The notes under the pieces: model-generated
What the model was told of the DNA's origin: nothing
Seen by the model: the letters and a program-made list of their open reading frames with translations, nothing else
Databases searched by the model: none
Program-made: the position numbers and the translations under genes
Source of the DNA: Chloroflexota bacterium
GTDB lineage: Bacteria > Chloroflexota > Dehalococcoidia > Lucifugimonadales > Australimonadaceae
Assembly (NCBI GenBank): GCA_028874795.1
Contig: JAPPHT010000010.1
Coordinates: 31,187-95,186, forward strand
Direction: 5' to 3'
Length of the DNA: 64,000 nt
Shown: one piece after another, positions 7,610-63,162 of the stretch
Layout of the letters: each line of letters starts with the position of its first letter
Position numbering within the stretch: the first letter of the stretch is position 1

Positions 7610-8453
7610 CGCACCGCCTCCTGCCCCCGCCCTCAACCGGCGGGACAGTGCCGCCACGTTCGTCCGGGGCGCGTTGGCTATCGCCCTCCTGCTCGTGCCG
7701 TTCCAGTCCGCCTGCACGCCGACCGCAGGCCCGGGCGAGCCTGCCCTGGTGGTGGGAATCGCTGCCAGCGTACAGCCGGTCGTGGTCGAACTGGCTGCGC
7801 GTTTCGAGGCTGAGCACGGGATACCCGTAACGCTCGTCACCGGTTCGTCCGGGACGCTGGCCGAGCAGCTTCGACAGGGCGCGCCTCTCGACCTGATCAT
7901 CTCTGCTGACAGTCGCTATACGTCAGATCTCGCGGCCGAGGCCTTGCTCGACCCGGGCAGCATCACGGCGCTTGTCCGGGGTGAGCTCGTCGCGGTCACC
8001 AACCTGGACTCCTCCGCCGGATCAGTTGCGCTGCTCCTGGAAGCCGCCGCCGTGCGCCACGTCGCGCTGGCGAACCCGGACCTGGCTCCGTACGGTGACG
8101 CGGCGAGGCGCTACATCCAGGGCCAGGGCCTCTGGGAGGAAACAGCCGGACGCATCGTTTACGGCGAGAACGTCGCCCAGGCGTTCCAGTTCGTTGCCAC
8201 CGGTAATGCGGAGTTGGGCTTCGTTCCGCGCTCACTGCTCATCGCCTCGGACGCGGAGGGCGTGCACGAGCTCCCTGCTCTCCCTCCGGAGGCAAGCGCC
8301 CCCTTGCAGGTCACCGCGGGTGTCAGCGCGGGGTCCGGCTCCGGCGATGCGGCCCGCCGCTTCATCCGGTCACTGGGCGATGAGCGTACCCTCGAGACGT
8401 GGCGCAGGTTCGGCTACGCCCATCTTGGTAAGGTTGACGTCGCGGAGCGATGA
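7596..8453 (+). CDS. modA: molybdate ABC transporter substrate-binding lipoprotein
   Basis: 285 aa. The signal peptide ends in lipobox QSAC. The mature part starts VVGIAASVQPVVVELAARFEAEHG, then VTLVTGSSGTLAEQLRQGAPLDLIISAD, the ModA pattern that contacts the oxyanion. The C-terminal part has NAELGFVPRSLL. Molybdate or tungstate is the expected ligand. The only reasonable start, a TTG, lies inside the 3' end of bcp. A 4-nt ATGA overlap links it to modB. Confidence 0.88.
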   Translation: MDRSSAPPPAPALNRRDSAATFVRGALAIALLLVPFQSACTPTAGPGEPALVVGIAASVQPVVVELAARFEAEHGIPVTLVTGSSGTLAEQLRQGAPLDLIISADSRYTSDLAAEALLDPGSITALVRGELVAVTNLDSSAGSVALLLEAAAVRHVALANPDLAPYGDAARRYIQGQGLWEETAGRIVYGENVAQAFQFVATGNAELGFVPRSLLIASDAEGVHELPALPPEASAPLQVTAGVSAGSGSGDAARRFIRSLGDERTLETWRRFGYAHLGKVDVAER

Positions 8454-9121
8454 TGGACTGGGACGCCCTGAGACTGAGCCTGCAGACCGGCCTTGCGAGT
8501 ACGGCGCTTGCGTTCGTAGTCGGCATCCCGGTTGCATGGGGGCTCTCGCGCCTGCGCGGGTGGACACATGACCTGCTGTCGTCGTCGGTGCTCGTCCCCA
8601 TGGTGCTGCCTCCCACGGTGCTGGGCTACTATCTGCTGGTGGCGGTTGGTCGCAACTCCCCCGTCGGGAGTGTGCTGGATGCGCTGTTCGGGTTCAGCTT
8701 CGTCTTCCAGTGGAGCGGCGCCGTGCTGGCCGCCTTCTTCGTTTCGGTGCCCTTCCTCATCCGCACCGCACAGGCGGGCTTCGAGTCCGTGGACCACGCT
8801 CTGGAGGAGGCGGCCCGTACGCTCGGGCAGACCGAGTGGACCGTCTTCACGCGCATAACGCTCCCCCTCGCCTGGCGAGCGGTGATGACCGGCGTCAGCC
8901 TCGCGCTTGCGCGCGCGACAGGCGAATTCGGCGCAACGCTGATGGTGGCGGGGAGCATTCCCGAGCGCACGCGCACGATGCCCATCGCTATCTACGAGGC
9001 CGTGCTGACCGGACGGACGAGCGAGGCCCAGGTGCTCGCCCTCACGCTTACTCTGACCGCCAGCGGCCTGCTCGTAGCCGTCGCCTTCGGGATGCGGCGC
9101 AGGGGCCCGCGCTCGCACTGA
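8450..9121 (+). CDS. modB: molybdate ABC transporter permease
   Basis: 223 aa with about five transmembrane helices, the usual ModB size. The cytoplasmic coupling loop EEAARTLGQTEWTVFTRITLPLAW is the EAA motif that contacts the ATPase. GEFGATLMVAGSIPERTRTMPIAIYEAV is characteristic of ModB. Overlap with modA is ATGA. No modC (ATPase) follows; the next gene is ccdA-like after a 425-bp gap. The cognate ATPase must be encoded elsewhere or shared. Confidence 0.92.
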   Translation: MMDWDALRLSLQTGLASTALAFVVGIPVAWGLSRLRGWTHDLLSSSVLVPMVLPPTVLGYYLLVAVGRNSPVGSVLDALFGFSFVFQWSGAVLAAFFVSVPFLIRTAQAGFESVDHALEEAARTLGQTEWTVFTRITLPLAWRAVMTGVSLALARATGEFGATLMVAGSIPERTRTMPIAIYEAVLTGRTSEAQVLALTLTLTASGLLVAVAFGMRRRGPRSH

Positions 9122-9225
9122 AGATAGTCTGAACTGTCCCGCCGCGACATCCGCCCCTTACGCCGCCGCCCGCGGCTGCCCTATTATGGTTCCTGCAGCT
9201 CAGGTACACGGCCATGTCGCCTGGT

Positions 9226-9441
9226 GGTTCCGTCCGATGAGGACCGAGTTCTCAGGGGTGAGATGAGCCAGAATGAGCAGAAATGAGACACTTATTTCGA
9301 TTGTTCTCCATCGCTCACGCCTGAGGACTTCGTCCGTACGAGTGGAACGGCATGCTCATTCCGGGTTATTCGCGCTCAGAAGCGCGCTGGGCGTGCTCAT
9401 CATCGATCGTTCGATGCTCATTTCGAGTTCCGTTTGCTCAT
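9226..9441. promoter_or_regulatory. helically phased GCTCA/TGAGC motif array with a large imperfect inverted repeat
   Basis: GCTCA begins at 9313, 9354, 9374, 9395, 9416 and 9436, with spacings of 41, 20, 21, 21 and 20 bp. That is a two-turn helical period with one position missing. Four of these are TGCTCAT. Opposite-strand copies, read as ATGAG, begin at 9263, 9273 and 9283, exactly 10 bp apart. The left half (9226-9349) is also a long imperfect inverted repeat (GTTCC...GGAC..AGT.CTCAGG against its complement). The array lies in the 425-bp gap between modB and the ccdA-like gene. No coding capacity is apparent. Confidence 0.6.
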
Positions 9442-9546
9442 GCTGAGGGGTGGGAACGTGGCATGCCGTGCCTGGCGTCGAATCCCTCTCGGGCTGGGAG
9501 GCGTATCATTGGAGAGAGGAGATAGCACCTCGGGGTGGAGGACTGA

Positions 9547-10449
9547 ATGATGCGTGCCGCGGTACAGAACATCCGCTGGGGAACAGCATTCCCCGTTCTC
9601 GCATTCCTTGGAGCGATGGCTGTCGCGATCGTCGGCGCGTTCATCACGGGAAGTGAGTTCGGTGCGGTTACAGGACGCGTGGAGTCTGTGTCCGCGCAGT
9701 CCGGGAACCTGCTCGGCGATCTGGGTGACCTGTTCCCGTTCGGGTTCGCGTTCAGCGCAGGTATGGTCTCTTCCGTCAACCCGTGCGGCTTCGCGATGCT
9801 CCCGGCTTACCTCGGGCTCTATCTGAGCGAGAACGAGACCATGGAGGCCGGTCAGAGCTCGGTATTGGCGAGATTGCTTCGTGCCGTGCTCGTCGGCGCA
9901 ACCGTGTCCCTCGGGTTCGTCATCCTCTTCGCCGCCGTTGGGACCCCCATCGGGCTGGGAGCGCGCGGGATAGCGGATGCCTTCCCCTGGATCGGTCTCC
10001 TCATAGGCGTGATGCTTGTCGTGGCCGGAGCGTACCTCCTCTCCGGCGGTAAGCTGTACAACAACTTCGCGGCCAGTATCTCTGCGCGGTTCGGCAATGC
10101 CAACAGCAAGAGTGTGCGGAGCTATTTCACCTTCGGCCTTGCATACGGGACCGCTTCACTCAGCTGCACGCTCCCCATCTTTCTCGCGGTGATCGGCGGC
10201 ACGTTCACTGCTGAGACCTTCCTGGACTCCGTGCTGCAGTTCATCCTGTACGGGCTGGGCATGGGCTCCGTCATACTGGCGCTCACCATAGGCATGGCGT
10301 TGTTCAAGGGCGCCATCGCGGGAGGCCTCCGGAGGGCGCTGCCGCACGTGGGCACGATAAGTGCCGTCATGTTGCTCATCGCCGGGACGTTCATCGTCTA
10401 CTACTGGCTGACGATAGGCGAGCTATTGGAGCGCATCCGGGGCGCGTAG
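9547..10449 (+). CDS. ccdA: CcdA/DsbD-type thiol-disulfide transmembrane protein
   Basis: 300 aa with seven or eight predicted membrane helices, probably moving reducing equivalents from cytoplasmic thioredoxin to extracytoplasmic thiols, for example for cytochrome c maturation. The two buried redox cysteines are in SSVNPCGFAMLPAYL (about residue 80) and ASLSCTLPIFLAVIGG. An extra N-terminal helix of about 25 residues precedes the family core. Start is the first of two tandem ATGs, with GGAGG 5 nt upstream. Synthesis could be governed by the phased motif array just upstream. The cytochrome c gene at 2755 is a plausible client. Confidence 0.85.
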   Translation: MMRAAVQNIRWGTAFPVLAFLGAMAVAIVGAFITGSEFGAVTGRVESVSAQSGNLLGDLGDLFPFGFAFSAGMVSSVNPCGFAMLPAYLGLYLSENETMEAGQSSVLARLLRAVLVGATVSLGFVILFAAVGTPIGLGARGIADAFPWIGLLIGVMLVVAGAYLLSGGKLYNNFAASISARFGNANSKSVRSYFTFGLAYGTASLSCTLPIFLAVIGGTFTAETFLDSVLQFILYGLGMGSVILALTIGMALFKGAIAGGLRRALPHVGTISAVMLLIAGTFIVYYWLTIGELLERIRGA

Positions 10450-61652: not shown

Positions 61653-62765
61653 ATGCTGTTCATAGACAACGCGACCGTGGAGCGGCTGCTCCCGATGGAC
61701 GAGTGCATAGACGCGCAGGACTACGCGTTCCGCGGGCTGCCCACGGGCGAGTCCGTCCACCGGCCCCGCATCGACCTGTACATGCCGGCGGAGCGTCCAG
61801 ACGGCTACTACCGCTGGGGCACGATGGAGGGCGCGAGCGACGCGCTGGGCGTCTTCGCCATCCGCATGAAGTCGGACATCCTCTACTGGCCGCGCGACGA
61901 GCACGGCTACTGGAAAGAGGAGAAGTACTGCATGGAGCCGGGCACGTACTGCGGGCTGATCTTCCTGTTCAGCACGCGCGACGGCGAACCGCTGGCGCTC
62001 ATCAACGACGGCATCCTGCAGCACATGCGCGTGGGCGGCGGCGCGGGGCTCGGCGTGAAGTACCTCTCGCGTCCGGACTCGCAGACCGTGGGGATGCTCG
62101 GCTCCGGCGGCATGGCGCGCACGTACCTGGAGGCGTTCTGCGCGGTGCGCGACATCCGCAGTGTCAAGGTGTTCAGCCCCACGAAGGCGAACCGCGAGCG
62201 CTACGCGGAGGAGATGTCGGCGAAGCTGGAGCTCGAGGTGCGCGCCGTCGACACGCCGGAGGCGGCGGTCGAGGACGTGGACATCGTCTCCGCCTGCACG
62301 AACGCGATGGAGCCTGCGCTGAAGGGCGACTGGCTCTCGCCCGGACAGCACGTGACCGACGTACGCGGCGAGCTGGACGCCGGGGTGTTCGAGCGCGCGG
62401 ACGTCACTGTCAAGCAGGGCGTGGCGCACTCGCGGCCCAGCAACGAGGACGTGCGGAGCATGGGCGACGGGTACAACCGGGGCGACTACATCGGCGGGAC
62501 GGAGGAGCAGAAGCAGCGCCTCCCTGCCCGTCTGCGCGAGGCGCGGGTGAACACCGGAGGGACCGATGAGACGCCGACGTTCAACGACCTCGCGAGCGGC
62601 AGGGTCGGCCGGACGTCGCGGGACCAGATCTCGCTCTACCTGAACTCCGGCAACCAGGGGCTGCAGTTCGCGGCGGTCGGCTCGGTGGTCTACCGCAAGG
62701 CGAAGGAAGAGGGCCTCGCGCGCGAGATCCCGACGGAGTGGTTCCTGCAGGACATCCGGGACTAG
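61653..62765 (+). CDS. ornithine cyclodeaminase / mu-crystallin family protein
   Basis: 370 aa. NAD(P)-binding GVKYLSRPDSQTVGMLGSGGMARTYLEAFCAVRDIRSVKVFSP, and the substrate-side LALINDGILQHMRVGGGAGLG. VDIVSACTNAMEPALKGDWLSPGQHVTDVRG belongs to the family. The substrate may be an amino acid or imine; ornithine cyclodeamination is not assured. AAGGAGAG precedes the ATG. It follows the Gfo/Idh/MocA gene after a repeat-filled gap and ends 15 nt before a 12-bp hairpin. Confidence 0.88.
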   Translation: MLFIDNATVERLLPMDECIDAQDYAFRGLPTGESVHRPRIDLYMPAERPDGYYRWGTMEGASDALGVFAIRMKSDILYWPRDEHGYWKEEKYCMEPGTYCGLIFLFSTRDGEPLALINDGILQHMRVGGGAGLGVKYLSRPDSQTVGMLGSGGMARTYLEAFCAVRDIRSVKVFSPTKANRERYAEEMSAKLELEVRAVDTPEAAVEDVDIVSACTNAMEPALKGDWLSPGQHVTDVRGELDAGVFERADVTVKQGVAHSRPSNEDVRSMGDGYNRGDYIGGTEEQKQRLPARLREARVNTGGTDETPTFNDLASGRVGRTSRDQISLYLNSGNQGLQFAAVGSVVYRKAKEEGLAREIPTEWFLQDIRD

Positions 62766-62780
62766 GGAGAACGAGGCGCG

Positions 62781-63014
62781 ATCAAGGTGGCCAACCTGCC
62801 TGGGTTCTGGCCACCTTGATGCCTGGCCTACGAGTGAACGGCCGCCGCCGTTTGGCCCCCTTGAGATCCTTGATATGGGCAATTTCAAGGCCACGGCCTG
62901 CTTCCGGGGCTCCGCAGTATCAAGAATCTCAAGATGGCCATGTTCTTCAAGTTTGAGGACTGGAGCCATAGACGTGGTCAATAGCAGCGGGGCGGAGCTA
63001 TAGACGCGGTCTAT
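62781..63014. repeat. palindrome-dense intergenic region with CTTGA/TCAAG and ATAGAC motifs
   Basis: ATCAAGGTGGCC (62781) and GGCCACCTTGAT (62809) are perfect 12-bp arms. CTTGAGATCCTTGATA (62860) and TATCAAGAATCTCAAG (62918) are inverted 16-mers with one mismatch. ATAGACGTGGTC (62969) and ATAGACGCGGTCTAT (63000, a perfect 6-3-6 palindrome) are 31 bp apart. No gene is seen in the roughly 400-bp gap. The ATAGAC palindrome is a likely operator for the downstream toxin pair. Confidence 0.65.
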
Positions 63015-63162
63015 GGGTGCTGCGTGAACGGCAGTCATACGACCAGCGTAGCGGGCGCGGGCCCGACCGCGTAAGTGGCCGGTGTCAGAAGAATGTGACA
63101 CGCGCCCCTACCCTATGCAGTTGGGGGCGCATTACGATAGGTGGGAACGAAGGAGGTCAGCC

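Follow-up and report, generated by a model that had tools for sequence, protein, structure and literature searches.

Phased 10-bp word arrays on insertion-polymorphic promoter cassettes and their link to terminase-small-subunit-like genes in SAR202-related Chloroflexota

Between a permease gene and a gene labelled CcdA-type in an uncultured, SAR202-type Chloroflexota bacterium lies a short segment (9226-9441) in which GCTCA, with an opposed TGAGC block, recurs in step with the DNA helix. A first, sequence-only reading of the window (the whole 64,000-nucleotide stretch analysed here) took it for the array of a co-operatively binding regulator or a nucleoid structure, and allowed that it could either control a thiol-redox gene or be a mobile element in itself. 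We questioned whether the array belongs to ccdA at all, where else such arrays occur, and which protein might read them.

The array and its cassette

All six GCTCA starts of the sequence-only reading (9313, 9354, 9374, 9395, 9416 and 9436) and all three opposed ATGAG starts (9263, 9273 and 9283) were recovered, together with one further ATGAG start at 9237. The segment is the densest of the window for GCTCA/TGAGC (8 in 216 bp, against a mean of 0.62 per 216 bp across the 64 kb). Its regularity was also beyond what simulation produced, count or phase being matched in 0 of 5,000 dinucleotide shuffles of the segment, and random placement of six sites equalled the phase in 1.5e-4 of trials. The phasing held up but the proposed two-turn spacing with a vacancy did not: the units lie on a 10-11 bp grid, every second one being degenerate (e.g. 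GGTTATTCGC and GATCGTTCGA). The right array has TGCTCAT at 9353, 9394, 9415 and 9435 and GCTCAG at 9374, with degenerate units between, and a copy from the same genome (L042) makes the grid explicit, with a GnnCAT-like word at nearly each 10-bp step. Across copies the units read AATGnnC on a 10-bp grid. These observations support a helically phased array to which a protein would bind co-operatively.

The imperfect inverted repeat is also real. The + strand of the segment folds at -121.9 kcal/mol (z = -4.0, compared with z -1.2 for the - strand), and the arm sequences at 9263-9279 and 9353-9369 are 82% complementary. Tandem-repeat and Rfam searches by themselves do not pick up the window array, and the Rfam search of the segment matched no family. 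A candidate microORF (ATG AGC CAG AAT GAG CAG AAA TGA, after an AGGAG-like sequence) was rejected: any ATGA repeat with a 20-bp period yields such a frame by default, and TGGCC-type copies no longer have it.

Positions 9144-9441 are a promoter-plus-array cassette of ~300 bp (Table 1). The promoter elements at its left end are TTACGC -18- TATTAT, with the -10 at 9182-9187, and the exact promoter-like consensus has a single occurrence in the 64-kb window, at the array. The left-array unit and tail are common to paralogous copies and to the leader of a TerS-like gene considered below (G000:C79:110863, 79% over 48 bp). The second cassette of the window, from a wider family, matches one other locus at 67% over 323 bp (L056) and also matches L040, L135 and L277. 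The gene at 9547-10449 had no Pfam or NCBIfam match, its CcdA label coming from a motif recognised by eye. Genes for a PhoB/PhoR-like pair and for PstS follow just downstream. A REP-like dispersed repeat, CCGCTCATGGTGAGCCTGTCGAACCACCAGCG, was seen near several cassettes (flanks of L003 and L004).

Table 1. Positions of cassette parts and neighbouring genes in the 64-kb window
Feature	Position	Strand	Basis
ModB-like permease gene, upstream of the insertion	8450-9121	+	PF00528, E 8.9e-19
DNA present here and missing from the modB-ccdA spacer of G002, G003, G004 and G005 (approximate extent)	9122-9475	.	pairwise alignments
Promoter-like left end of the cassette, GCGACATCCGCCCCTTACGC (9144-9163)	9144-9187	+	exact consensus match
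Left arm of the imperfect inverted repeat enclosing the left array	9226-9262	+	fold z -4.0; weak covariation, 4 copies
Left array, ATGAGCCAGA / ATGAGCAGAA / ATGAGACACT, spacing exactly 10 bp, then constant tail TTATTTCG	9263-9300	+	
Right arm of the inverted repeat	9301-9349	+	fold and arm complementarity
Right array, opposite orientation, TGCTCAT words on a 10-11 bp grid	9353-9441	-	
Downstream gene, called CcdA-type from motif NPCGFAMLPAYL only	9547-10449	+	orthologs in 6 relatives
Second cassette, wider family, promoter-like left end as at 9144, word class TCAAGG/CCTTGA	62660-63100	-	

Comparison of orthologous loci separated the array from ccdA. In four congeners (G002, G003, G004 and G005) a spacer of ~105 bp separates the neighbouring modB and ccdA; the spacer of the window species is ~320 bp longer, and the extra DNA is the cassette. 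The orthologous ccdA upstream regions thus lack the period, a check that the sequence-only reading had itself named, and the cassette's absence from four such loci refutes an element specific to ccdA or thiol-redox control while leaving the array itself untouched. The suggestion of a mobile element gained support, as both loci tested showed insertion polymorphism of the cassette and paralogs of it lie at other places in the genome. At the second locus, that of a CoA-binding gene, ~120 bp of proximal promoter are conserved in five genomes; upstream of it one genome has no cassette, and in the other four the cassettes differ from genome to genome and all begin with a similar promoter-like sequence. 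Because cassettes differ or are absent among congeners at both the CoA-binding and ccdA loci, they come and go. Presence and absence at orthologous sites, as expected of a MITE or transposon, was found at these two loci, and no terminal inverted repeats, target-site duplication or fixed end were seen at the ccdA junctions.

Copies, private words and TerS-like genes

A search of the own genome with the array segment recovered diverged copies (the two best places at 72-73%; divergence among copies of 25-33%). Extended leftward, the copies have a promoter-like start, GYGACAYCYGCCC-TTRYGC, with TACNNT ~18 bp on. A 56-nt sequence model of the left array, run on the own genome and 30 relatives, matched 23 times in the own genome and 9-35 times in four of the five congeners; a member of another genus of the same family (G014) had 33 matches, and the remaining relatives almost none. 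One word is common to all units of an array and usually changes in concert, being TGAGC in the window and TGGCC, TGTCCC, TGTTGC, TGGCAC or TGAGAC elsewhere. Drift affects the sequence between units but not the units or their spacing, and up to 71 arrays were found in one genome. Rather than being tied to ccdA, the copies are scattered before unrelated genes (lipA, ispF, VOC and others); orthology could not be shown between VOC loci with TGAGC and with TGGCC arrays. A same-strand gene lies downstream in 31 of 46 sampled arrays (p 0.013), leaving 15 with none.

Arrays often run into a gene for a protein of ~133 aa, 'LTxRQxxALPYIA...TLxRWxxDPxFRxEL', which PHROGs profiles assign to the terminase small subunit, TerS (phrog_2538, 7344 and 4044, E down to 2e-7); a Pfam HTH_Tnp_1_2 match was below the cut-off. 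A structure model of medium confidence (pLDDT 75.8, pTM 0.52) has HTH helices at 14-46 and then two long helices, and its best Foldseek matches in the PDB, all weak (E 0.008-0.2), were phBC6A51 (nine chains) and the small terminases of PaP3 and NV1. There are six such TerS-like genes in the own genome and one to eight in congeners, and 28 of the 197 genomes of the order have them. Named relatives of the protein occur in MAGs titled SAR202 cluster bacterium, Chloroflexi bacterium and Dehalococcoidia bacterium, with isolate names suggesting sponge-associated hosts. IMG/VR held no phage relatives of the TerS clade, and phage records yielded only three distant TerS-like matches, two of them satellites (Streptococcus), without arrays. 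Two TerS clades are conserved within 1.2-2.5 kb of the large-subunit gene TerL; other TerS-like genes are solitary, several with conserved neighbours.

Most TerS-like genes have two or three ATGnnnC units at 10-bp spacing over the start codon, each clade with its own word, so that the array determines how the protein begins (MSQN, MAQN, MLQN). Across 53 non-redundant start regions, self-match was strongest at a shift of 10, which is not a codon multiple (z 10.7); shifts of 20-21 were also raised, and 9 and 12 were much lower. Distant families keep the pattern with words of their own, for example TGCAAC (G076), TGCGAC (G174), TGGAAC (G036) and TGTGGC (G102), and a few members have no obvious start array (L200, L214, L215). 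Repeats at the promoter or start of terS, a mark of a pac site, are seen here as 10-bp units over most TerS-like start codons.

Arrays and TerS-like genes also keep company across genomes. With the word left free, the 28 genomes that have TerS-like genes contained 307 occurrences of AATGN6AATGN6AATG, and the 169 genomes that lack such genes contained 73 (means of 11 versus 0.4 arrays per genome; p 2.5e-16, in statistics across the 197 genomes that ignore phylogeny), while a reversed-pattern control gave 20 and 14. Words at starts matched arrays of the same genome at 2.93 of 4 bases, compared with 2.27 +/- 0.10 for a size-matched null drawn from other genera (maximum of 2,000, 2.63). Between two congeneric genomes the word has changed in both places, with TGAGAGG at the TerS-like start and in arrays of G106, and TGAGCGG at the start and in most arrays of G168. 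Similarity of the recognition helix tracked that of the word (r 0.31, p < 2e-4) in a hand-made table of 25 pairs, a correlation that shared descent inflates. One genome (G014) has many array words, yet one intact TerS-like gene and one fragment. Two others, G060 and G094, have 6 and 11 phased arrays (TGGGAG/TGAGAG; TGTCCG/TGGGCAC) and no TerS-like match at 1e-5, for which a divergent reader or a missing contig may account.

The window itself has left units TGAGCC, TGAGCA and TGAGAC and right units TGAGCA. Judged by sequence, its TGAGC reader may be one of three candidate paralogs: C80:40849 (word TGAGCAG, 17-bp exact match to the window array), C2:1782 (word TGAGCC, 16-bp exact match) or C79:110863, whose leader has the unit-and-tail layout of the window.

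Operator, packaging site or relic

With moderate confidence we read the array as a set of multiple recognition sites for small TerS/phBC6A51-like HTH proteins, on a non-autonomous cassette of ~300 bp whose insertion between modB and ccdA in this lineage would have put ccdA under TerS control. The proteins acting on it would be encoded elsewhere in the genome, each paralog with its own word and each subunit of the oligomer reading one AATGnnC word; unit spacings of one or two turns would bring all subunits onto one face of the DNA. TerS-like genes have their start codon and ribosome-binding site inside the array and are therefore likely autorepressed. Because the cassette array lies just downstream of a promoter, ccdA would most likely be TerS-controlled, either by roadblock repression or by looping between the opposed left and right arrays, and the cassette would have given it a new promoter under that control. 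The 15 of 46 arrays without a same-strand gene next are a poor fit to an obligate operator, which makes a pac-like or mobilisation site a rival to be taken seriously; the two readings are compatible by descent.

According to this rival, possible if somewhat doubtful, the arrays are TerS sites for packaging or cutting by TerL of the same genome, and the cassettes, instead of being operators, are non-autonomous mobile elements or else mark DNA for packaging by a dispersed gene-transfer-agent-like system. TerL (phrog_2) has 4-9 matches each in the own genome and congeners, many of them intact and set among ordinary genes, outside obvious prophages or phage clusters as judged by a selective reading of the surrounding ORFs. 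The HK97-type capsid gene is present exactly once in each of eight genomes (G000 to G007), with a head protease adjoining in the two loci read (G000, G001). The cassettes share their promoter-like motif with TerS-like genes, TerL genes, a methyltransferase and the protease-capsid operon of G001. The conservation of two TerS clades beside TerL, the variation of cassettes between congeners at both loci tested, and the one third of arrays not upstream of a same-strand gene likewise favour a pac-like site, as does the pac of SPP1, where direct repeats span the promoters and the start of terS (PMC4737164). Packaging, however, does not need several private words per genome, and known gene transfer agents package without sequence preference, the TerS of RcGTA lacking the DNA-binding HTH and packaging being random (PMC6854486). 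Also against it stand the junctions without target-site duplication or fixed end, the several solitary TerS-like genes with conserved neighbours, and G001, which has eight TerL genes yet no R1-type array.

The TerL and capsid loci have further features of their own. The head-protease and HK97-type capsid pair sits among cellular genes (L284:9854-12439, L285:7577-10006). In G001, a single contig, at least one of the eight TerL genes is directly behind a DNA methyltransferase (L266:4571-8480, L267, L268), and the three TerL genes read there have near-identical promoters. Leaders of TerL genes (L263:6838-7075, L264:8906-9126, L262:8547 on the - strand, L270:5461) share a conserved 5' region in which a hairpin resembling an intrinsic terminator, CCCCCTCAGCGAAGAGCACGAGGGGGCTTTCTG, separates the promoter from the gene, as would suit control of TerL by attenuation. 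The capsid pair and TerL of SAR202 relatives possibly constitute a dispersed gene-transfer-agent-like system. A related proposal, which we regard as rather unlikely, is terminase-based dispersal, in which TerS-like families, each with a private phased word, and multi-copy TerL nucleases move or package promoter-array cassettes around the chromosome; if true, this would be a class of element or gene transfer with phage packaging parts replacing the transposase.

It is unlikely that the arrays are decayed, functionless repeats, truncated TerS-like 5' ends scattered by recombination and periodic by descent only. One array in G014 does run into a broken TerS-like frame (L098), and copies differ by as much as noted above, but the words still match intact TerS-like genes of the same genome, and the arrays are numerous, with units and spacing kept through the drift of intervening sequence. 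Still harder to sustain, and very unlikely, is a structured leader RNA formed by the palindromic array after transcription from the cassette promoter: the upstream promoter and the strand bias of the fold agree with it, but no Rfam family matched, covariation adds only -1.62 kcal/mol to the consensus fold of four copies (weak), and the strict 10-bp DNA period and the one-sided arrays over TerS starts would go unexplained. That the array is an operator, whether for a regulator specific to ccdA/thiol redox or for the PhoB-like regulator nearby, is hinted at by the position between promoter and gene and by the PhoB/PhoR-like pair and PstS, but is highly improbable, being contradicted by the four orthologous ccdA loci without a cassette and by copies before lipA, ispF, VOC and other genes.

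Read as TerS recognition arrays, our preferred interpretation, the results suggest that a viral packaging protein has given rise to many private DNA-binding switches or site markers in bacteria. If true, free-living or symbiotic bacteria would have developed it into a many-membered family of sequence readers, each with a word distinct from the others'. As regulators or mobilisers such a family would be new, and its protein-DNA code would be readable. Natural protein/word pairs would number in the dozens and be conserved throughout an order, and DNA reading by a TerS oligomer, which is disputed in phage biology, would become testable. The results also point to a dispersed terminase-capsid system in SAR202-related Chloroflexota.

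Comparison with known systems

Literature searches found no description of a dispersed TerS-array system of this kind, nor of a dispersed terminase-capsid system in SAR202-related Chloroflexota. By analogy, the TerS-like proteins and arrays may work like a TerS/pac pair, and we do not file them as phage or gene transfer agent. Like mobile promoters, MITEs and REPIN-type repeats, the cassettes are short, dispersed, intergenic, insertion-polymorphic and promoter-bearing; unlike them, they carry phased words that match a protein family, and neither terminal inverted repeats nor target duplication were found. Phage satellites (SaPI/PICI) encode an alternative TerS with private packaging specificity. 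The TerS-like genes here, in contrast, have no satellite genome around them, and the satellite TerS-like matches are without a 10-bp array. The best fold matches, phBC6A51 (PDB 2ao9) and the PaP3 and NV1 small terminases, have weak E-values and are phage proteins without known dispersed chromosomal sites, unlike the set described here.

As with gene transfer agents such as RcGTA, the host genus keeps domesticated terminase and capsid genes. Unlike in RcGTA, the TerS-like HTH is kept, the sites look specific and the head genes are dispersed, with TerL away from the capsid gene; the genes covered here are those for terminase, head protease and capsid. There is also a resemblance in layout to SPP1 and SF6, where a TerS-type HTH protein is likewise combined with repeats over the start of its own gene, and where a ring of HTHs has been proposed to grip bent DNA (PMC4737164). 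On pac DNA the TerS of SF6, through its DNA-binding domain, discriminates little between sequences (PMC4737164); a word-specific TerS would therefore be unusual. The Chloroflexota genomes differ from SPP1 and SF6 in that a single bacterial genome has several paralogs, each associated with a separate 10-bp word, and that site copies lie by the dozen before or between host genes.
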